A stretch of DNA of 64,000 bases. Source: Chiayiivirga flava. GTDB taxonomy: Bacteria; Pseudomonadota; Gammaproteobacteria; Xanthomonadales; Xanthomonadaceae. The notes beneath the pieces were generated by a model that ran no database searches, was not told the DNA's origin, and saw only the letters and a list, made by a program, of their open reading frames with translations. The DNA is taken from the NCBI RefSeq assembly GCF_014202825.1, contig NZ_JACHHP010000002.1, positions 744,001-808,000 on the forward strand. Direction: 5' to 3'. How positions within the stretch are numbered: position 1 is the first letter of the stretch; each line of letters begins with the position of its first letter. Of the stretch, positions 236 to 48,272 are shown in pieces. Position numbers and translations under genes: made by a program.

Positions 236-511
236 CTACATGCAAATAGAACAACGGGTCAGCGACCGATCAAGCTTGGTTTGTGAATATTGCTCCAGGG
301 CGGCAAGATCAGTGCTACAGAACTTGATGTAGTCGCCGGTTGTGAAGTTGCCAATCTTGGCGCTGGACATTGAGCCATGAGTCGCTGCATGGACCATGGG
401 GTATTTCGGCATTCTCACAGCGCGATCAACGTTTGCGACGAAGCCGTGCGGGTTGGCCTGAACCCACTTGAGGTATCTCGTCTCGTCATTGTCAAACAGC
501 TCGACCATCAT
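236..511 (-). CDS. Integron cassette: 91-aa hypothetical protein
   Basis: The start is placed at the tandem ATG ATG at 511, because GGAGAG lies 3 bases upstream; the longer frame would begin inside the neighbouring attC. The protein is soluble, with no signal peptide. It contains YLKWVQANPHGFVANVDRA and HAATHGSM, resembling a small domain (a YLxWxxxNPxGFVxN pattern followed by an HRA-like motif) that I recall in many uncharacterised bacterial proteins; its function is unknown to me. It fills the cassette between the attC sites at 165-221 and 543-600. Confidence 0.7.
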   Translation of the reverse strand: MMVELFDNDETRYLKWVQANPHGFVANVDRAVRMPKYPMVHAATHGSMSSAKIGNFTTGDYIKFCSTDLAALEQYSQTKLDRSLTRCSICM

Positions 512-542
512 TCTCTCCGGTTGCCTGCGCGGTTGATAACGG

Positions 543-600
543 CCTAACACCTGAGTTAAGCCGCGCCGCGAAGCGGCGTCGGCTTGGACGAACTGTTAGG
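543..600 (-). repeat. attC recombination site (short type)
   Basis: This is a 58-bp site with cores CCTAAC and GTTAGG, nearly identical to the 165-221 site but with GGACGAACT in place of GAATGAATT in the right arm. It belongs to the 556-1056 cassette, whose reading frame ends inside it. Confidence 0.93.
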
Positions 601-1056
601 GCTCATGCCGCGTACGGCACAAAACGCAGCAGCTGCGACGAGCCCACAAACCCCGAAGGATGCCGCTCCGCCCATGTATTGGAGCCAGCCTGCCACAGTG
701 GGCACGCCATTCACCATGGTCTCGACGCCGTTTGACGAGGCGTAGGAGCCTGGGCTGGCGTAGCGCAGCGGCCAAGTGATCACCGCGGCAGGCAAGGCCC
801 CCAGCACGAAGCCCGCGAGTAGAGCACTCCACCACCGGAGTAGGCCGCGCCAGCGCATGAGGAAGTAGGCCGGGATGCCGAGCACAACCACATGGGCTGC
901 CGAGATGGCTAAGCAGATGGACAGGAAGCTGCGGGTGCGTACCCAGATATAAGGATCATTCGACTCAAAGGTGGCGAACTGGCCGTAGAGGTACCAAGCC
1001 CCGAGTGCCAGCGTCGGCGCAAGAACCGCTGCTCCGAACGCGATGATGAGTCTCAT
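556..1056 (-). CDS. Integron cassette: 166-aa polytopic membrane protein
   Basis: The protein has about four hydrophobic segments (residues roughly 5-25, 45-68, 72-96 and 128-148), consistent with an inner-membrane protein. No family is recognised. The reading frame runs 45 bases into the downstream attC, so the last 12 residues (SSSKPTPLRGAA) are encoded by the recombination site and the TAA stop is in the attC inner arm. The start ATG at 1056 is 5 bases from the upstream attC boundary, leaving no room for a cassette-borne promoter. Confidence 0.7.
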   Translation of the reverse strand: MRLIIAFGAAVLAPTLALGAWYLYGQFATFESNDPYIWVRTRSFLSICLAISAAHVVVLGIPAYFLMRWRGLLRWWSALLAGFVLGALPAAVITWPLRYASPGSYASSNGVETMVNGVPTVAGWLQYMGGAASFGVCGLVAAAAFCAVRGMSPNSSSKPTPLRGAA

Positions 1057-1157: not shown

Positions 1158-1571
1158 TTAGCCGGGGTCGCAAGCGGGCGGAGCAGTGCCAAGCTCCCTT
1201 TGAATTGTCACCCACGTGGTACCGAAGAACTCTTGCGAGGATTGATCGCCAGAAGCCTCGCGGCGGAGCGCGGCTGCGCGCTCCGGGGCCAACGACAGCT
1301 CATACGATGCGCCCACTCTGCGCCAAGCGGACGAATCGTCAGGGATCTCCGCGTGCAGCACAACCAGCTTGGCGCCGCAAAGCTCGGCGGGCGCAAGCAC
1401 CTGAAAGGTCGTTGCGTGATGGGCCTCATAGGAGCCATCGGAGTAGTGCGACCAATTGGCACTCTCCGCGAAATCTATCAGCGTTGCCTGGACCAGGAGT
1501 GGCCGATCCGCAGGTGTGGAGGCGCACGACGTGAGCAGAATAGTGAGAATGCCGAGAAGCCGCGCTAGCAC
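1158..1571 (-). CDS. Integron cassette: small lipoprotein
   Basis: The 137-residue product starts MLARLLGILTILLTSC, a short signal peptide ending in a lipobox LTSC with the lipidated Cys at about residue 16. The mature part has no recognised domain. The product would be anchored in the membrane on the periplasmic side. It sits in its own cassette between the attC sites at 1061-1147 and 1584-1640. Two plus-strand frames overlapping it are antisense shadows. Confidence 0.75.
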   Translation of the reverse strand: MLARLLGILTILLTSCASTPADRPLLVQATLIDFAESANWSHYSDGSYEAHHATTFQVLAPAELCGAKLVVLHAEIPDDSSAWRRVGASYELSLAPERAAALRREASGDQSSQEFFGTTWVTIQRELGTAPPACDPG

Positions 1572-1583
1572 TGGTAACAGCCT

Positions 1584-1640
1584 CCTAACACCTGAATTAA
1601 ACCGCGCCGCGAAGCGGCGTCGGCTTGAATGAATTGTTAG
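1584..1640 (-). repeat. attC recombination site (short type)
   Basis: This 57-bp site has cores CCTAAC and GTTAG. Its hairpin GCCGCGAAGCGGC matches the other short sites, with a single-base change in the inner arm (AAACCG for AAGCCG). It is the attC of the TIR cassette, and its core CTAAC contains that gene's TAA stop. Confidence 0.92.
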
Positions 1641-2614
1641 CCGTCAACTCCAAGTACCCGCAGTGATCGGCAAATGCGCTCGACACCCTTATAGCCAGTC
1701 TTGTAGCCGGCTCCGATCCCTACTATGGCTTTTTCCAGCAATTGACGGTGCTCCTTTGCGATGCGGTAGTTCGGAACGTTAAGCAGCACGTAAAACTCAT
1801 CCATTTCCGCTAAATCAAGCTCGAACGCTAATGTCCTTGACTGTTGTTTCGTCAGGGTCCCACTTGACCAACCGGAGAAAAAATCTCTCCACCAACTTAG
1901 CTCAGATTCTCTAACCGGCGGGTCGGTAGTCAGATACACGCCATGAGGAATTTGATGTTTCGCTTTTAGCTTTGCTTTGACTTGCTCTAGTTCGTCGGAT
2001 AGTGCGTCAGGAAAGTCTTCATCTAGGTCGAGCCCTTTCGACTTTTCATCAAGTACGACGCCGAAATCTTCTTTGAATGCGTTTATTGATAGAAATCTGT
2101 GGTATACGCCGACGGAATGTGATTCCGCTGAATAAGTGGCGAAATTAATCGCTTGATCTAGTAGGTCAGCCAGTTCATTTGCACTCAGCTTGTTTCTGTC
2201 TGGAAATAGAGCAGAAATCTTAGAAGCAATCTTCTTGACGCCAATCGATGAGTTGATTGCCAAACGATCGGCTAGTAGCGGAGATACTGCAGCGACTCCT
2301 TTAAAATCAATATCGTGCCAAATTGGAATGATTCTGGCTCTTTCTGCAATTTCAGAGCTGTAAAGCGCGTCGAGTTCGCGTTGCGGCCACTCTTTAATGA
2401 AGAAACTTGGGCTGAGCACGACGACACCGACACTGCATTGTGCGAGTCCCTTATCTATGCTTCTGCGAAGGCTGTCTCCCGGCCGGAGAGAGTATTCGTC
2501 GTACCACACAGTTAGGCCAATCTCATTCAAGCTTTGCGCGAGCGGCCTCACGAGGAGATCTTTGTCCTCGCTTGCGTGGCTAATAAAAATTGAAGACACC
2601 ATGGGATCTGGCAT
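1637..2614 (-). CDS. Integron cassette: TIR-domain protein
   Basis: Residues 7-145 form a TIR domain: SIFISHASEDKD is the first strand and box 1, YDEYSLRPGDSLRRSI is the box 2 region, and WPQRELDAL carries Glu80 at the position of the catalytic Glu of NAD-cleaving TIR enzymes. Residues 150-325 match nothing I recognise and could be the sensing or regulatory part. Bacterial TIR proteins often act in antiphage defence through NAD degradation or signalling; applying that here is inference. It is the first cassette next to the degenerate attI at 2620-2672. The stop TAA is the attC core. Base composition is visibly AT-richer than the flanking chromosome, in keeping with transfer. Start may be residue 1 (2614) or Met5 (2602). 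Confidence 0.88.
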   Translation of the reverse strand: MPDPMVSSIFISHASEDKDLLVRPLAQSLNEIGLTVWYDEYSLRPGDSLRRSIDKGLAQCSVGVVVLSPSFFIKEWPQRELDALYSSEIAERARIIPIWHDIDFKGVAAVSPLLADRLAINSSIGVKKIASKISALFPDRNKLSANELADLLDQAINFATYSAESHSVGVYHRFLSINAFKEDFGVVLDEKSKGLDLDEDFPDALSDELEQVKAKLKAKHQIPHGVYLTTDPPVRESELSWWRDFFSGWSSGTLTKQQSRTLAFELDLAEMDEFYVLLNVPNYRIAKEHRQLLEKAIVGIGAGYKTGYKGVERICRSLRVLGVDG

Positions 2615-2619
2615 TGACG

Positions 2620-2672
2620 GCTAACACCTATTCGACACCACATCGTGGTGTGTAACGCCGCCGTGTAACGGG
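2620..2672 (-). other. attI-like site of a second, degenerate integron platform
   Basis: It begins with the core CTAACACCTAT (minus-strand GGTGTTAG). A short hairpin CACCAC/GTGGTG follows at 2636-2650, then two direct GTAACG repeats at 2652-2657 and 2665-2670. The same elements in the same order and spacing occur at 47111-47165 beside the intact integrase gene. Similarity continues into the start of the intI gene, so this is a duplicated platform rather than an attC. Confidence 0.8.
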
Positions 2673-2767
2673 CTGATTGCGCAGGGAGGTTTCTTGAGAA
2701 TCAATGCCTTCTGCTCGATTCGCGGGGTGGGATGTGGGGCGTAACGCGGGGATTTTGCCGGCAGGCG

Positions 2768-2887
2768 ATGCGGGAGGCATCGTTGCATTCGATGGGTGCG
2801 GGTGCAAGCGATCGGGTGGTGAAACGCGGGTCGCGCCGTTGGGCGCAACGGCGGAAATCGGCGCGCCGGGGCGGCGTGCTTGGTTGA
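2768..2887 (+). pseudogene. intI: Remnant of integron integrase gene 5' end
   Basis: A 39-codon frame begins MREASLHSMGAGAS, matching the start of the intact integrase at 47268 ([12 protein letters not shown]). At DNA level the stretch GGCATCGTTGCATTC is shared exactly, and the upstream leader (GGGGATTTTGCCGG versus GGGGTTTTTCCGG) is also similar. Similarity fades after about 2830, the frame stops at 2885-2887, and the rest of the recombinase, including all catalytic residues, is absent. It lies at the same distance from the attI-like site as the real gene does from its own attI. Confidence 0.72.
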
Positions 2888-42536: not shown

Positions 42537-42566
42537 ACCTCCGAGTAGCGAGGCAATTGTAGGCGA

Positions 42567-42623
42567 CTAACGCCTGAGTTAAGCCGCGCCGCGGAGCGGC
42601 GTCGCCCTGGATGAATTGTTACC
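42567..42623 (-). repeat. attC recombination site (short type, variant core)
   Basis: Inverse core CTAACG and hairpin GCCGCGGAGCGGC are typical. The outer core reads GTTACCC instead of GTTAGGC, and the arm reads GTCGCCCTGG in place of GTCGGCTTGA. These changes may weaken recombination. Confidence 0.85.
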
Positions 42624-42637
42624 CGCGTGCCCAGTTA

Positions 42638-43318
42638 CTAGTAGATCCATAGGTCGCCCTCCTTAGGATCTTTAGGCTCGTCTGGCTGCACAAAGATTCT
42701 TGGCTCGGTCAGCTTGTCGAGAGACTGGAGAAGGCCGGGACCAATCTCCATCGCCCACTCAGATGCTCTCCGGTCGACCTCGGCGCCATGTACCGCGGCA
42801 TTCAGCAGGCCAACCAGGTCGGCAAGTACCGACCTCTGCTTGGTAGTGAGAACTCCACGCTTATCCAGCTCTCGGAGGATGGTGCTGATGCCCCGCGAGC
42901 GGAGAGGGACCTGATGCTACTCTGCGAGACGCAACAGTCGGCGTTCAATCTCGATGCGCAGCCCAGCAAGTGCCAGATTGGGGTCGCGATCTGCAACAAG
43001 TTGGAACGAGTGTTCAGGAGCCGGACTCCCCGACTCGGAGGAAATCAGTCCTGCGTCTTGAGCGCGGCTAGAGACTTGATACATCTCTTGCAGCTCGACC
43101 TTCCAGCCGCCGGGAAGCTCCAACGTTTTAATGAGCGGTGCCAGCCACGGGATGATCGCAACAGCGAGCAACCCGAGAGTAATTGCATCGATCGCAAGGT
43201 TCGGAAAAAGCAGGTGAGCCAATGCGAGCGCGAGCGCCGCCAGAGTGACAATACGGCGAACACGCCGTTGCAAAGTCACAGCGGGGCTTTCTTGTTTAGG
43301 TTCGTGGGCGGCTGTCAT
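42638..43318 (-). pseudogene. Integron cassette: gene interrupted by one in-frame TAG
   Basis: The first frame (42917-43318, 133 residues) has two membrane helices (residues ~24-60) and ends GLRIEIERRLLRLAE, then TAG at 42917-42919. Reading straight on in the same frame gives 92 further good residues (HQVPLRSRGISTILRELDKR ... NAAVHGAEVDRRASEWAMEI ... GDLWIY) to a TAG at 42638-42640. The tail continues the helical domain begun before the stop, so the intact gene was 226 codons. One base change (CAG or GAG to TAG) explains it. Both halves are within one cassette. Either the gene is dead, makes a truncated protein, or is read through. Confidence 0.8.
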
Positions 43319-43331
43319 GTGTGTTTAGCGG

Positions 43332-43388
43332 CTAACGCCAGAATTAAGCCGCGCCGAGAAGCGGCGTCGGCTTGAATGAATTGTTAGG
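43332..43388 (-). repeat. attC recombination site (short type)
   Basis: This 57-bp site has cores CTAACG and GTTAGG. Its hairpin GCCGAGAAGCGGC has one mismatched pair compared with the consensus. It belongs to the 43384-43788 cassette. Confidence 0.9.
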
Positions 43389-43788
43389 CGCCACTTGCAG
43401 CACTCTGCATGTGCTCACGAATCTTCCGCTCCAATTCCGCAAACTCCTCCATGAGCCTGTCGCACTCAAGCTTGGATGCTTGGCAAAGGGCATTGGTACG
43501 CATCCTGACGGCCCCATCTTGTTCATAGATGGGGCGCTTCACCGCAGCCGGGTGTGCGGGGTGTCCCGGAGGAGTAAACGACCAGATTGAACGCTCCTCT
43601 CCGTCTTGCATCGAGACGACAGTCCACCCATCCTGCTCCCTGACCTCGGCAAGCGGGTTGCTCTTTAGGTCTTCGAAAGCCTCCGCAACGCTAGCGTAGC
43701 CAATTGAGCTCGTTCTTGGCCCGTCCGTAGCTATGACGGATCCAGCGGCTAGTGCCAAGATGAGGGGAAGTAGATGCTGAACTCTCAT
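43384..43788 (-). CDS. Integron cassette: exported small protein
   Basis: The 134-residue protein has an N-terminal signal peptide (MRVQHLLPLILALAAGSVIA) and no lipobox. The mature part (SVAEAFEDLKSNPLAEVREQ, GWTVVSMQDGEERSIWSFTP) ends in a charged helix with two Cys (LCQASKLECDRLMEEFAELE). It is expected in the periplasm; family not recognised. The TAA stop is supplied by the attC core at 43384-43386. Confidence 0.72.
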   Translation of the reverse strand: MRVQHLLPLILALAAGSVIATDGPRTSSIGYASVAEAFEDLKSNPLAEVREQDGWTVVSMQDGEERSIWSFTPPGHPAHPAAVKRPIYEQDGAVRMRTNALCQASKLECDRLMEEFAELERKIREHMQSAASGA

Positions 43789-43794
43789 GTGGCA

Positions 43795-43883
43795 CCTAAC
43801 GCCGCGTTAAACGGCCGCGGGCCGAATATACATCAGGAAACACGATGACCTGTCCCCGCGGTCCGTTTGAACGCATAGTTAGG
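43795..43883 (-). repeat. attC recombination site (89-bp type)
   Basis: The cores are CCTAACG and GTTAGG. The arms are GGCCGCGGGCCG and CCGCGGTCCG, with the conserved central string ACATCAGGAAACACGAT. It is a close sibling of the site at 44367-44455 and belongs to the DUF4279 cassette. Confidence 0.9.
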
Positions 43884-44361
43884 TTGATGGCGCGCAGCAC
43901 TGAGAGTATGCCTTTCCGCTTTCACATGGACACGGAGCTGAGGGATCAATAGGGCGATCAGGAGCGTAGATATCGAAGCCTACCTCGATCCCGCGTGCAG
44001 CAAGGGCAGACATTGTAGCTACTGAGAGGGAACATCCTTCATTCGATCCTTCCATGAACAGACCACAGAACAGATCGATCTGATACTTCTGATTGAGCGT
44101 CGACCACACCGCCATGTCAGAGGAAAGGGCCGAGAGAACTTCGTGGACTTGGTGGTCCAGATCCTCCGGCTCGCGCGGCGCGGCGGTGATCTTCCACATC
44201 CCCGTCTTTCGGGTTATGACGTGCCCGGTGCTTGTGTGCCGAACTTCCCCCTTCGAGTACGAGTCCGTCGGCCTTGAGCCGAGAAGCACTGAAATCTCGT
44301 CAGGAACGAGGTCGTCCCCGAAGATTCGGAGCGCTGCCCGAGATTGCGAAATGCTAGACAC
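43879..44361 (-). CDS. Integron cassette: DUF4279 protein with C-terminal SEC-C motif
   Basis: The 160-residue protein starts at GTG 44361. Residues 8-135 match DUF4279 (LRIFGDDLVPDEISVLLGSRP, GMWKITAAPREPEDLD, DLFCGLFMEGSNEGCSLS). Residues ~143-157 are CPCESGKAYSQCC, a SEC-C zinc motif of the kind on SecA and many accessory proteins. The combination suggests a protein- or nucleic-acid-binding accessory; function unknown. Its stop TAA lies in the attC core. Confidence 0.85.
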   Translation of the reverse strand: MSSISQSRAALRIFGDDLVPDEISVLLGSRPTDSYSKGEVRHTSTGHVITRKTGMWKITAAPREPEDLDHQVHEVLSALSSDMAVWSTLNQKYQIDLFCGLFMEGSNEGCSLSVATMSALAARGIEVGFDIYAPDRPIDPSAPCPCESGKAYSQCCAPST

Positions 44362-44366
44362 AGCAA

Positions 44367-44455
44367 CCTAACGCCGCGTTAAGCGGCCGCGGGCCGATAC
44401 AACATCAGGAAACACGATCGCCTCTCCTCGCGGTCCGCTTGAACGCATAGTTAGA
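44367..44455 (-). repeat. attC recombination site (89-bp type)
   Basis: This site shares most bases with the 43795-43883 site, including CAACATCAGGAAACACGAT in the loop region, although the two cassettes encode unrelated proteins. The cores are CCTAACG and GTTAGA. Confidence 0.9.
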
Positions 44456-45242
44456 TCGCATACACCGCAGCCAGCTGTTCTTTGACTAGCCTTGATAGAG
44501 CATGAAATGAAGTTAGCGCATGACCATGCTGCACTGACAGAGTTGAAGCCAAATGAGCAAGCTCCAGAGGCGGGCGCGCCCCAAAGCCATACCTTGTGGT
44601 TCCGGTTTCAGAATCGCGCTTGCGGCTAACCAGCCCGCTGAATCCATGCACCAATCGAGGCGGAGCGGAATGGTTGTAAAGGTTTCTAAAATTACCGGTC
44701 GCCTCGGAGTACGCAGAGTCCGAAAGGCCTGACAGCGAATTTAGAAGCGAAGGCCCAGTGCTCCACCTCTCGACGCAGCGCTTCATAACGCGATAGTCGA
44801 TCCCCGTGTCGTTCGGCAGACGCGACTCTCCCCAGGAAGGGTCAGTAGCCTTGTTCGCCTGGTGTGACAGGTGGCTGGCCGCGAAAATGAACCTGAAGCG
44901 CAAAGCATACGGCGTTTGGACCGCTGAAAGCGCAATGGAATCAATTAGCTCGATCGCAAGAGTGAGCTGATCGAGTGCTTCACAATCTGGAAGAACCTTT
45001 GACCAAGCTTCGAGCTGACCGATTCTATGCCCGAAGGCGTTAACTTCATTTGCTAGGTTGGGAAGGTGCTCCCGAAGCAATTCGTGGTACGGCGCAAGAT
45101 TGAATGGGTTGCTATCGCGGGTCTCGACGTGGCCGTAAGGGGCTAGTTCGAACTCAGTGGATGTTTCGTAGAAATGTTCTCGCGCCTCCTGGAGGGCCCG
45201 CAGAATCAGCGCAGTTTCTTTGACGTACTCAGGGTTGCCCAT
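44451..45242 (-). CDS. Integron cassette: HEPN-like protein with R-X4-H motif
   Basis: The start ATG at 45242 was preferred to a GTG that lies inside the attC (45257). The 263-residue, mostly helical soluble protein carries NFRNLYNHSAPPRLVHGFSG near residue 190. The R-N-L-Y-N-H core fits the R-X4-H active-site motif of HEPN ribonucleases, and the surrounding pattern recalls the Cthe_2314-type HEPN group. HEPN proteins often act in defence and toxin systems, so a role here is inference. No companion antitoxin is in the cassette. Stop TAA is in the attC core. Confidence 0.7.
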   Translation of the reverse strand: MGNPEYVKETALILRALQEAREHFYETSTEFELAPYGHVETRDSNPFNLAPYHELLREHLPNLANEVNAFGHRIGQLEAWSKVLPDCEALDQLTLAIELIDSIALSAVQTPYALRFRFIFAASHLSHQANKATDPSWGESRLPNDTGIDYRVMKRCVERWSTGPSLLNSLSGLSDSAYSEATGNFRNLYNHSAPPRLVHGFSGLVSRKRDSETGTTRYGFGARPPLELAHLASTLSVQHGHALTSFHALSRLVKEQLAAVYAI

Positions 45243-45249
45243 GATGCGA

Positions 45250-45335
45250 CCTAACACCTTAGTTAAGCCGCCGCCTGCGACGGCAACGGTTCGGAGCCGT
45301 GCCTTCCCAGCGGTCGGCTTGAATGAATAGTTAGA
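45250..45335 (-). repeat. attC recombination site (long type)
   Basis: This 86-bp site has cores CCTAAC and GTTAGA, arms AGTTAAGCCG and CGGCTTGAATGAATAG, and its own long central stem (GGCAACGGTTCGGAGCCGTGCC). It belongs to the 45337-45966 cassette. Confidence 0.88.
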
Positions 45336-45336
45336 T

Positions 45337-45966
45337 TTATTTCTGTACGTAGAGGGCGACTAAAAGCGCCAGAAGTGCAGTAATAATGATGTTTCCCCAC
45401 TTGTTGCGCATGGACAGCACAGATCGCAGCAATTTATTTTTGTAGCGAAGATCATTGAGTAACAGCCAGTTGAGCCGTGCACGATCAATGACGCCACTCG
45501 AATCATGACCACACAAGGACGTCATACGCGCCACAAAAAAGAACTTTTTCAGTGCGTCTTGAATTTTTGATAATGTGAGCTCGGCCGGATCGATCGGACG
45601 ATACAATAAAATTTCTTTGAAATTAGATTGGACTCGATCGGATTTGCGTGGATAAACGATGAAGATTACATGTCCTGATATAGACTGCGACGCTACTAGT
45701 GCGCCACCACCTTCTAATGCTGCGGCACCTTCAGCGCCTGTTTTAATAAATCCAGTTGTAATTTGAATCGTCTCTTCGTTGGGTGTTGGAAACAATTTGA
45801 CATCAACTGGGAAAGGGTAGCTGCAACTCGATGCGTCTTCACGCGCATGGGAAAATGCGCCATAAATTCTGTCACGCACGAACACGCGCCAGTTTAAGCG
45901 CCTGTACCACAGTAGGTCGTGTGCTCTACTGAGCTTTCTGGTCTCCTCCAGCATCAATTCGCTCAC
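45337..45966 (-). CDS. Integron cassette: C-terminally anchored hypothetical protein
   Basis: The protein has about 209 residues from the GTG at 45966; a GTG at 45981 lies in the attC and an ATG at 45954 is also possible. The main part is soluble, with a Gly-rich beta segment (GAEGAAALEGGGALVASQSISG). The last 20 residues are a membrane helix (IIITALLALLVALYV), giving a tail-anchored layout. The gene is distinctly AT-rich for this chromosome. No family recognised. Confidence 0.65.
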   Translation of the reverse strand: MSELMLEETRKLSRAHDLLWYRRLNWRVFVRDRIYGAFSHAREDASSCSYPFPVDVKLFPTPNEETIQITTGFIKTGAEGAAALEGGGALVASQSISGHVIFIVYPRKSDRVQSNFKEILLYRPIDPAELTLSKIQDALKKFFFVARMTSLCGHDSSGVIDRARLNWLLLNDLRYKNKLLRSVLSMRNKWGNIIITALLALLVALYVQK

Positions 45967-45973
45967 GGCAAAA

Positions 45974-46060
45974 TCTAACACCGTGTTAAGCCGCCGCTGC
46001 GCGGCAGCGGTCCAGAGGAACGAAGCATATCCTCAACGGTCGGTTTGAGCACACAGTTAG
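45974..46060 (-). repeat. attC recombination site (long type)
   Basis: This 87-bp site has cores TCTAACA and GTTAG, with central stem GCCGCTGCGCGGCAGCGG. It belongs to the 46057-46482 cassette, whose stop TAA is in its core. Confidence 0.88.
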
Positions 46061-46482
46061 TCATGACGCGTGGAGGAGATCCGAGCGGCGGCGATGCCGG
46101 CAACGACAAGCAAAAGCACGATTATCGAAGCGCCCCCGATGGTCGGTACCGAATGGTGCGCGGAGCCCGACTGCGAAACTCCTTCCGACACGACAAAAGG
46201 TTGCGAAAATGCACTGCGCAGGACAGGAGGGCCGCAGTCATTGACGGCGGACGCAACGTACAGCTCGTAACGGACGGTGTACTCGCCAGGCGCGAACGGT
46301 CCCATTACAAACCGGACGTTGTAGGCGGGCGGCGTGGCGAAACAGAAGCAATCAATCTCGTCGCGAACAAAAATCGTGTCGCCAGCCAGCACATGAGAAG
46401 CATGTCCTCCACAGCCGGAACCGGTGTACGTGAACAGTACTTGCTCACGTGATGTAGGCGCTGCGGGTGCGGTTTGGATCAT
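46057..46482 (-). CDS. Integron cassette: protein with IPTL-CTERM-like tail
   Basis: The 141-residue protein has a Cys-containing beta-type region (GCGGHASHVLAGDTIFVRDE, YTVRYELYVASAVNDCGPP). It ends in VPTIGG, then a hydrophobic helix (ASIIVLLLVVAGIAAA), then basic residues (RISSTRHD). That three-part end matches the layout of IPTL-CTERM sorting tails, although the W of the usual IPTLSEW is missing. No N-terminal signal peptide is evident, which is odd for a sorted protein. Confidence 0.65.
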   Translation of the reverse strand: MIQTAPAAPTSREQVLFTYTGSGCGGHASHVLAGDTIFVRDEIDCFCFATPPAYNVRFVMGPFAPGEYTVRYELYVASAVNDCGPPVLRSAFSQPFVVSEGVSQSGSAHHSVPTIGGASIIVLLLVVAGIAAARISSTRHD

Positions 46483-46483
46483 G

Positions 46484-46541
46484 GCTAACGCCTGAATTAA
46501 GCCGCGTTGCGAAGCAACGTCGGCTTGAATGAATTGTTAGA
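46484..46541 (-). repeat. attC recombination site (short type)
   Basis: The cores are GCTAACG and GTTAGAC. The hairpin GCCGCGTTGCGAAGCAACG differs from other short sites by compensated changes (GTTGC/GCAAC), which keeps the stem. It belongs to the attI-proximal cassette. Confidence 0.91.
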
Positions 46542-47091
46542 CGGGAGCATCGAGGGAGAACCTGCCGTCATCGAAGTATCCGCGAAGCCGATAGGCTCGC
46601 CACTGTACTCTTGCTCTTTGAATGATCGTCGGTTGTTGCCCATGAAAGTAGGCATGGCAAATGGCAAAGTCCATTGCTTCTCGTAAATATGTGCCGAGAA
46701 CGAGAAGCTCTTTTGTCCTTGCGCTGGTGCGCTGATCTTTCATGTGGGCGATGTAGACGGGCATCCATTTAATTGTGCGAAAGCCAGAATCTAAACCCCA
46801 AAGTGGATAACGCGTCTTGAGCCTAACTTGATCAATCTCTTTCGCGACGGCATCTGCCTGAGTTCGAGTCGCTGCAAATGTTGCGTCGGTCTTGCACTGG
46901 CTCATCTTCACTGAGAGCGCGACCAGTTGATACAGTTTGTTTCCCAGTTCCGTAAAGTCATTGGCTAACGCTGTCCGTCTGGTGCTGCGCAAATCAGATT
47001 GCCGCGCAAAATGCGCTGACACGAACAGGCTAACGACAGAAAAGACAGCCGCAACCGCTGCGGCAAGTAGAGTTGCATCCCCCTGATCCAC
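46537..47091 (-). CDS. Integron cassette (attI-proximal): membrane protein
   Basis: The start is taken as GTG 47091, with GGAG 7 bases upstream; the frame is open to 47118 inside attI. Of 184 residues, ~8-30 form a membrane helix (LLAAAVAAVFSVVSLFVSAHF). The rest is a cytoplasmic helical region resembling the DUF4760-type layout (RRTALANDFTELGNKLYQLV), without a firm match. As first cassette it should be the best expressed of the array. Confidence 0.7.
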   Translation of the reverse strand: MDQGDATLLAAAVAAVFSVVSLFVSAHFARQSDLRSTRRTALANDFTELGNKLYQLVALSVKMSQCKTDATFAATRTQADAVAKEIDQVRLKTRYPLWGLDSGFRTIKWMPVYIAHMKDQRTSARTKELLVLGTYLREAMDFAICHAYFHGQQPTIIQRARVQWRAYRLRGYFDDGRFSLDAPV

Positions 47092-47110
47092 CGCGATCTC
47101 TCCGTTCCCG

Positions 47111-47165
47111 TCTAACACCTATGGGACACCACGGATGTGGTGCGTAACGCCGGGGTGTAACGCTG
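47111..47165 (-). other. attI recombination site of the chromosomal integron
   Basis: It comprises core TCTAACACCTAT, hairpin CACCAC/GTGGTG (47127-47142) and direct repeats GTAACG (47144-47149, 47157-47162), the expected core plus accessory IntI sites. It lies 103 bases from the intI start, between the integrase gene and the first cassette, in the usual divergent layout. Confidence 0.85.
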
Positions 47166-47267
47166 TGCCCGGCAGGAAATTTCCCATGCGAATCCCCGAT
47201 GTCGCCCGAGTTACGCCCCATTGCGTGGGGTGTAGCGTTGGGGTTTTTCCGGCGCGGGGAGACATGG

Positions 47268-48272
47268 ATGGCATCGTTGCATTCACGGGAGGGTGGCGCA
47301 AGCGAGGTCGGTGAGGCGCCGCGGTTGCTGGATCGGGTGCGGTTGCGGGTCCGGCGGTTGGGGTTGGCGCTGCGGACCGAGGAGGCCTATGTCGGGTGGG
47401 TGCGGCGTTTCATTCTTGCGTGCGGGAAGCGGCATCCGGAGACGATGGGCGCGCGTGAGGTGGAGTGGTTTCTCTCGCGGTTGGCGAGCGAGGGGCGGGT
47501 GTCGGCGTCGACGCAGAATCAGGCCTTGGCGGCACTGTTGTTTCTGTATCGCGAGGTGCTCGGGGTCGATCTGCCGTGGATGCACGATATTCGGCGGGCG
47601 AAACGGCCGGAGCGGTTGCCCGTGGTGTTGACGCGCGAGGAGGTGGCGCGGGTGCTGGGGCAACTGGAGGGTATGTCTTTCTTGATGGCGGGTCTGTTGT
47701 ACGGCGCGGGGTTGCGGTTGATGGAGTGTTTGCGGCTGCGCGTGCAGGACGTGGATCTTGCGCGGCGCGAGATTACGGTGCGGCATGGGAAGGGTGGCAA
47801 GGATCGGCGGACAATGTTGCCGGCGGCATGCGTGGGAGCGTTGCAGCGGCAGCTCGATGCAGCGCGGGAGGTGCATCGGCGCGATCTGGAGGAGGGGTTC
47901 GGCGAGGTGTGGTTGCCGGATGCGCTGGCGAGGAAGTCTCCGACGGCAGGGCGCGCGTGGGCGTGGCAGTACGTGTTTCCGGCGCGGGCGCGGAGTGTCG
48001 ATCCGCGGAATGGCGCGGTGCGTCGGCATCATGTGGACGAGAAGGTGTTGCAGCGGGCGGTGTTTCGCGCCGTGCGGCAGGCCGGCATCGAGAAACACGC
48101 CACGTGTCATACGTTGCGGCATAGTTTCGCAACGCATTTGATCGAGGCCGGTTCGGATATCCGCACGGTGCAGGAATTGCTGGGGCATACGGATGTCTCG
48201 ACGACACAGATTTACACGCACGTGTTGCAGCGGGGTGGATTGGGGGTGGTAAGTCCGTTGGATGTGGGGTGA
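47268..48272 (+). CDS. intI: Integron integrase (tyrosine recombinase)
   Basis: The 334-residue enzyme is intact. The N-terminal SAM-like domain (residues 15-105) is followed by the catalytic domain with Arg150, His281, Arg284, His307 and Tyr316, each exactly four residues beyond the IntI1 positions. The IntI-specific segment between patches II and III is present ([29 protein letters not shown], ~231-259). GGGGAGA precedes the ATG at 47268. It inserts and excises cassettes by attI x attC recombination. Transcribed away from the cassettes. I see no clear LexA box in the leader. Confidence 0.97.

Follow-up and report, generated by a model that had tools for sequence, protein, structure and literature searches.

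Chiayiivirga flava carries four widely separated integron attachment sites (attI), each at the head of a cassette array, and one intact integron integrase gene. Three of these platforms (P2, P3, and P4) are probably satellites, with attI sites loaded in trans by the single IntI that also serves its own site at P1; we put this reading at roughly two chances in three. The usual picture of an integron is a single integrase with an adjoining attI; arrays that lack intI are regarded either as remnants or as scattered cassettes occupying secondary sites. In the scheme that we infer, an ancestral platform would have been duplicated within the lineage of this genome, the copies would have moved, and intI would then have been deleted from every copy but one, with the attI core and the IntI-binding repeats kept. 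The single IntI, encoded by the gene starting at 47268, would act in trans on all four attI sites, integrating and excising cassettes at each, and one integron would thereby be spread over four loci.

Anatomy of the P2 site

The window analyzed here is a stretch of 64,000 bp (C2:744001-808000) of the 4.07-Mb genome, which is assembled in 12 contigs. The P2 attI (2621 to 2670, plus strand) consists of the core CTAACACCTATTCG, a CACCAC/GTGGTG inverted repeat (2636 to 2650), and two GTAACG repeats (at 2652 and 2665). The P1 attI (47112 to 47162, plus strand) has the core CTAACACCTATGGG, the inverted repeat at 47127 to 47142, and the GTAACG repeats at 47144 and 47157; the core CTAACACCTAT stands at both 2621 and 47112. 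The GTAACG repeats are presumed to be IntI-binding sites. Farther along, P2 has a second conserved island, TGTGGGGCGTAACG, with the leader GGGGATTTTGCCGG (2733 to 2761, plus strand; the GGGG(A/T)TTTT(G/C)CCGG leader occupies 2748 to 2761), and the start of intI, GCATCGTTGCATTC, is present at both junctions. The remnant of the first intI codons at P2 (2775 to 2811, plus strand) has lost the start codon (GAG, at 2620 as the position was reported, in place of the ATG of P1), and the remainder of the gene is undetectable. Local homology between P2 and P1 stops about 190 bp from the core, about 13 codons into intI. The original prediction had the integrase gene lost after about 20 codons; the loss itself stands, but the homology is shorter than that and the start codon is gone too.

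The element-by-element repetition claimed for the two junctions holds for every element named, and it extends outside the core. Homology links the segment from 2621 to 2811 with the attI-intI junction at 47112 to 47305, and their local alignment scores 70 when the core is left out. Dinucleotide shuffles (n = 1,000) gave a mean score of 22.2 (standard deviation, 3.0; maximum, 36), and the best scores elsewhere in the window were 30 on the plus strand and 36 on the minus strand for control pieces of 288 bases taken every 144 bases, with the plus-strand pieces adjoining both sites left out. Identity between P2 and P1 was 75% in the attI segment (2621 to 2670) and 51% in the spacer that follows. 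Homology reaching from the core into intI gives no support to the proposal that IntI had acted at a secondary site. Nor does the site read as an ordinary attC: an attC model (R2), with which 150 of 5,563 first-look candidates were scored, reported none at 2621, though it reported the neighboring attC sites, and a model of the attI region (R1) called an attI there.

P2 has no functional intI beside its attI, as a complete integron platform would; P1 has a full-length intI in that position. What P2 does have is an attI homologous to that of the intact integron and correctly oriented, attC-bounded cassettes, and the attI and attC models agree on the second, integrase-less platform with its own array that had been predicted.

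The P1 attI has TATGGG (47120 to 47125) where P2 to P4 share TATTCG with 11 of 19 relatives; of these variants, the less typical is the one beside the working integrase. This difference between P1 and the satellites counts against loading in trans. The spacer between attI and intI at P1 and in several relatives (L029 and L037) also holds a palindrome around GGAAATTTCC (47175 to 47184 in P1), judged by eye to be degraded in P2 to P4, which is possibly an intI operator.

Four platforms and their arrays

The original prediction described a special arrangement of two platforms around 40 kb of core genes. A DNA search followed by a search with R1 revealed four platforms: P1, at C2:791108 (window position 47112, plus strand), which bears the intact intI and adjoins rho; P2, at C2:746617 (window position 2621, plus strand); P3, at C1:248656, on a different contig from P1; and P4, at C2:575830-575995, 170 kb away and on the strand opposite to that of P1 and P2. 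The last three are without integrase. R1 was built from these four copies, P2 being one of its four training rows, and matched them with E values of 9e-41 to 6e-33 (P2, 4.6e-37); the next matches, at E values of 0.05 and 0.16, look like coding DNA. Genome-wide IntI searches found one intact integron integrase gene, intI at 47268 to 48272 (plus strand; 334 aa; TIGR02249, E = 3e-142), and gave no match at P2. Each attC array found in the genome is headed by an attI, and a single array has an integrase.

P1 and P2 lie 44.5 kb apart in the same orientation, as would be expected if one large integron had been split by a chromosomal insertion or rearrangement of about 40 kb or if IntI had inserted cassettes at an attG-like site. 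The placement of P3 on another contig and of P4 in inverted orientation, 170 kb off, does not fit either origin. Moreover, an attI and an intI start are present at both P2 and P3, and P4 too has an attI. A split could not have duplicated these elements, and they are not part of what a cassette insertion brings; P2, furthermore, pairs with P4 and not with P1. We therefore regard both origins as very improbable, and the suggestion that chromosomal DNA had been inserted into one integron is not supported.

In a tree with 19 attI sites of relatives, most of them named Lysobacterales, P1 to P4 formed one clade (support, 100/99), and their alignment shows a common core, insertion, and 13-column gap. 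Within the clade, P1 and P3 are sisters (93/85), as are P2 and P4 (98/92). The single clade favors duplication within this lineage over a split integron, in agreement with one of the origins first proposed. It also argues against the separate acquisition of several related integrons from near relatives, all but one of which then lost intI, an account that we find decidedly unlikely. Integron neighborhoods do differ between genera, in keeping with such an account: rho and the frames beside P2 to P4 gave no tblastn match in 80 IntI loci, many of which end near intI; IntI itself did give matches in the same database. Repeated foreign arrival, however, would not be expected to make copies cluster by genome, as attI copies tend to do in the trees. 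A tree of 41 attI sites from 19 genomes had 16 changes of genome label (minimum, 12; shuffled mean, 27.6; 0 of 200 shuffles as low), in a test that covers the 13 genomes with at least two copies. Seven of these 13 form single clusters (G094 with weak support), although six are split (G022, G083, G085, G087, G089, and G090).

Nine relatives, each compared over the 20 kb lying past rho on its 3' side, were uninformative on whether the 40 kb separating P2 from P1 is syntenic. When window frames of at least 100 aa were compared with these stretches, rho alone was matched in seven and nothing in two; one of the seven added distant matches, the long ones at about 32%, to genes at 59 to 64 kb. The gene to the right of P2 was matched in 1 of 39 other genomes. 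In a metagenome-assembled genome (MAG), G095 (L198, L199, L205, and L206), three attI copies show tract-wise identity: bases 0 to 134 are identical, bases 134 to 240 have diverged, and bases 241 to 379 are nearly identical between the C6 copy and the intact copy, a pattern such as gene conversion would leave.

R2 was built from 19 attC sites, and 150 of 5,563 first-look candidates were scored with it. Of the 31 attC matches obtained at E values up to 1, 30 lie inside the four attI-headed arrays (P1, 7; P2, 7; P3, 6; P4, 10). The lone weak match outside them (C2:542667-542723; E = 0.011) is far from all four. P2, P3, and P4 each have at least two tandem attC sites without a nearby intI and are in this respect CALINs, that is, attC-bounded cassette arrays without a nearby integrase gene. 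The P1 array occupies 42566 to 47111 (minus strand).

Four complete cassettes had been seen attached to P2; they are indeed present, as the right-hand part of an array in which three of the seven attC matches lie to the left of the window. Cassette 1 carries a gene for a TIR-domain protein (1637 to 2614, minus strand; 325 aa; PF13676, 1.2e-21) and an attC at 1584 to 1642. Cassettes 2 and 3 carry genes for proteins of 137 aa (1158 to 1571, minus strand) and 166 aa (556 to 1056, minus strand), both without a Pfam match, with attC sites at 1061 to 1148 and 543 to 601, and cassette 4 has an open frame (236 to 550, minus strand) and an attC at 164 to 222 (81.8 bits). The model matches for all four attC sites are on the plus strand, and the cassette genes are on the other. 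The TIR protein resembles PDC-S66 and ThsB of anti-phage systems, and the product of the first cassette of P4 (L013, 1597 to 2982), a protein of 461 aa, matches the pAgo and Aga_SIR2 profiles of PADLOC. Two similar stretches (gcaagcgtgtcggtccc...) were seen by eye toward the far end of the P2 array, at about 6540 and 7857 of L007.

Among the 30 cassettes, no cassette-body DNA was common to the arrays of P1 to P4; the attC ends alone match, at up to 98%, indicating that the arrays were filled separately. The sole likeness between cassette proteins of different arrays is a distant one (P1 cassette 7 and P4 cassette 6; 50% over 64 aa). The attC sites form one mixed pool in which similarity is unstructured by array membership: the nearest neighbor was in the same array for 7 of 30 sites (shuffled mean, 7.0). 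Mean attC scores were 68.4, 63.2, and 64.3 for P2, P3, and P4 and 64.5 for P1; the integrase-less arrays do not score lower.

These data bear on another account, in which full platforms were duplicated, each array was filled by its own intI, and intI was then lost, leaving the arrays frozen as inert fossils. The intI remnants at P2 and P3 fit it, as do the altered ends of several P3 attC sites and the lack of common cassette DNA. The last two observations also count against loading in trans, recent exchange in this strain being unsupported by the cassette DNA. The undiminished attC scores of the integrase-less arrays argue against frozen arrays, and with the evidence from relatives given below, we consider it unlikely that P2 to P4 are inert.

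Integrase-less attI sites in relatives

The attI copies at first appeared to be an isolated case, with R1 matches in 3 of 79 other genomes; a broader attI model (R3) overturned this view. R3 was built from 23 sequences that include P1 to P4; training rows match it by construction, and the other extra attI sites were not in training. Of 25 genomes chosen for having IntI (24 distinct; G027 and G084 are one genome by coordinates), R3 matched 23, many of them with several sites. Sampling the family evenly (197 genomes, C. flava included, each at least 90% complete) gave 72 attI sites, at E values up to 1e-5, in 40 genomes, 20 of which had two or more. A full intI lies within 600 bp of 29 of these sites, 5 have a fragment, and 38 have neither; exactly one attI has a full intI in 16 of the 20 multi-attI genomes. 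Three of the 40 genomes (G004, G136, and G183) have attI but no IntI match at the cutoff used for relatives (E values up to 1e-16), and attI may outlast the integrase.

Nineteen extra attI sites were examined outside C. flava, and for 12 of them the array side gave an attC match. Those without one are L187, L189, L195, and L203 and, near contig ends, L194, L200, and L201; the argument for satellites does not depend on sites lacking attC, but they were still counted in the by-genome clustering above and in the comparison of core and spacer below. A satellite with five attC matches in G022 (genus g23) has an orthologue in G119, with both flanks conserved, that has no attC match; not every satellite is therefore loaded, which counts against loading in trans. 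G089 (the same genome as G108 by coordinates) has a disrupted, nearly full copy of intI beside its second attI, as expected if platforms had decayed into fossils. A candidate second array in G087 was rejected, since contig overlap suggests one long array.

The attI sites of the family have an inverted repeat beside the core (bases 10 to 38 from it), the sequence of which varies while pairing is kept (CACC/GGTG, ACCCC/GGGGT, GACGTC/GACGTC, and GCTGC/GCAGC). Stems of at least 5 were found in 25 of 52 rows (57 aligned), compared with 3 of 56 control stretches, related copies being counted repeatedly.

Fixed sites with changing loads are found in genus g4, of which three species were compared: G179 (one contig), G214 (one contig), and G228 (six contigs). 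Each has one IntI match and three attI sites (I, b, and c). The right flanks are orthologous across the three species (I, 95 and 86%; b, 96 and 89%; c, 93, 89, and 87%); attI-I and attI-b are unseparated in the g4 attI tree, and their orthology therefore rests on these flanks. In all three species, an intI remnant was undetectable at attI-b and attI-c. On the array side of b and c (6 to 7 kb leftward), no stretch of more than 200 bp was common to different species, with the exception of 452 bp of the distal flank of b in G179 and G214. Short attC-sized matches between the array sides do occur, and 754 bp of G179 array c is 90% identical to a stretch in G228 array I. The integrase-less attI sites of g4 have been retained long-term at orthologous places, and their loads differ between species. 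Arrays frozen by the loss of intI would not be expected to differ among three species that all lack intI at those sites, and fixed integrase-less sites with changing loads suggest a single enzyme that supplies several distant sites.

Individual cassettes were also found at more than one site within a genome. The first cassette at attI-c of G214 is 100% identical over 447 bp to a cassette of array I and ends at the core. An identical cassette abutting an integrase-less attI again speaks against inert fossils; the array-I copy, however, has a different or damaged attC, a point against loading in trans. One whole attC-to-attC cassette of G228 recurs in arrays b and c, neither of which has an integrase (536 bp; 95.5%). 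In G179, arrays b and c have 443 bp in common, 99.5% identical and next to an IS110 element. Three draft genomes repeat a cassette start, which stands at an integrase-less attI or in the array there and again in a second array, with the match followed as far as contig ends (G083, 99.1% over 232 bp; G094, 127 bp; G097, 123 bp). Two longer repeats, 1.3 kb common to G179 arrays b, c, and I and 1.6 kb common to arrays of the MAG G095, were rejected as cassettes because they carry an IS110-type transposase, and this identity is a further point against loading in trans. IS110-type elements are repeated within the arrays of both genomes (L254, 2171 to 3130; L206, 7666 to 8760), and an Rfam sX15 sRNA match overlaps the IS110-type copies in all three G179 arrays. 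A tRNA gene (L255, 7346 to 7419) lies about 300 bp to the right of the integrase-less attI-c of G179.

The conservation of the attI core was compared with that of the spacer. In 21 satellite-intact pairs (1 of 22, L204, was dropped for having too few columns), the core and first repeats were better kept than the spacer in 16, with 3 ties and 2 reversals (Wilcoxon P = 0.0003); over all 22 pairs, 861 of 1,149 positions were identical in the core part and 704 of 1,111 in the spacer. The gap was smaller in intact-intact pairs between genomes (0.547 versus 0.502). P2 (0.75 and 0.51), P3 (0.79 and 0.62), and P4 (0.71 and 0.41) all have a better-kept core, as satellite attI sites should. In g4, identity of b and c to G228 was 0.87 to 0.92 in the first 52 bases, 0.52 to 0.67 in the next 63, and 0.90 to 0.92 in the following kilobase; the second repeat island of attI-c drops to 0.38 to 0.48. 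Between G179 and G214, in contrast, the spacers of b and c (0.968 and 1.0) were kept no worse than the cores (0.923 and 0.981). A core kept while the spacer decays, in most pairs and against G228, is not expected of inert fossils; the G179-G214 comparison lacks this pattern, and both it and the drop in the second repeat island of attI-c count against loading in trans. Core conservation may be inflated by the model's own preference for the core, and attI retention could also serve a Pc promoter for the array.

The P2 array had been called a fossil, a label that fits the intI remnant but not the attI and is probably wrong. The relatives lend strength to the accompanying suggestion that the distant integrase may go on feeding the array; for C. 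flava itself, we infer it.

Proposed satellite attI sites and known integrons

CALINs are stated to be possibly mobilized in trans by a functional IntI (PMC12444791). The arrays described here differ from CALINs in being headed by attI, with an intI start at P2 and P3, and in that the attI sites of relatives are fixed while their cassettes change. IntegronFinder 2.0 detects no attI outside class 1 (PMC9024848), and surveys based on it would therefore miss attI-headed arrays.

The sedentary chromosomal integron of Xanthomonas and relatives resembles the one described here in its intI of the TIGR02249 kind, divergent cassette array, and species-type attC. A single intI platform, with ilvD as its neighbor apart from two exceptions, is described for Xanthomonas integrons (PMC12444791), whereas C. 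flava has one platform next to rho and three without integrase. The same survey found that about half of the Xanthomonas genomes have integrase-less arrays, located at a few conserved loci, and contrasted this with scattered attG insertion. Unrecognized attI copies would explain the fixed positions of such arrays. In Xanthomonas fuscans 4834-R, an attI, a truncated intI, and a cassette array lie off the usual site and are described as integron remnants at one place (PMC3826837). The truncated intI with attI and the displaced array are features in common with the satellites, but the excerpts available of that paper describe no second attI beside a working integrase. In the delta-attI gene cassettes, attI-type sites of cassettes of mobile integrons are usable by IntI1 (PMC12901181). 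There, too, an attI sequence stands in an unusual place and is still usable; in C. flava, by comparison, whole attI sites head separate chromosomal arrays.

CALINs, the idea of mobilization in trans, and a displaced truncated intI with attI are already known. No description of several attI-headed arrays served by one integrase was found in the literature searched, outside of which most subscription papers lie. If satellite loading in trans is true, loading sites can be multiplied without multiplication of the recombinase. The evidence is evenly poised on whether Lysobacterales commonly run such a distributed integron, in which one integrase would serve several attI sites copied around the chromosome, fixed by selection for trans loading and perhaps homogenized by gene conversion. 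If they do, many integrase-less CALINs of Lysobacterales would be active satellite docks and not relics.
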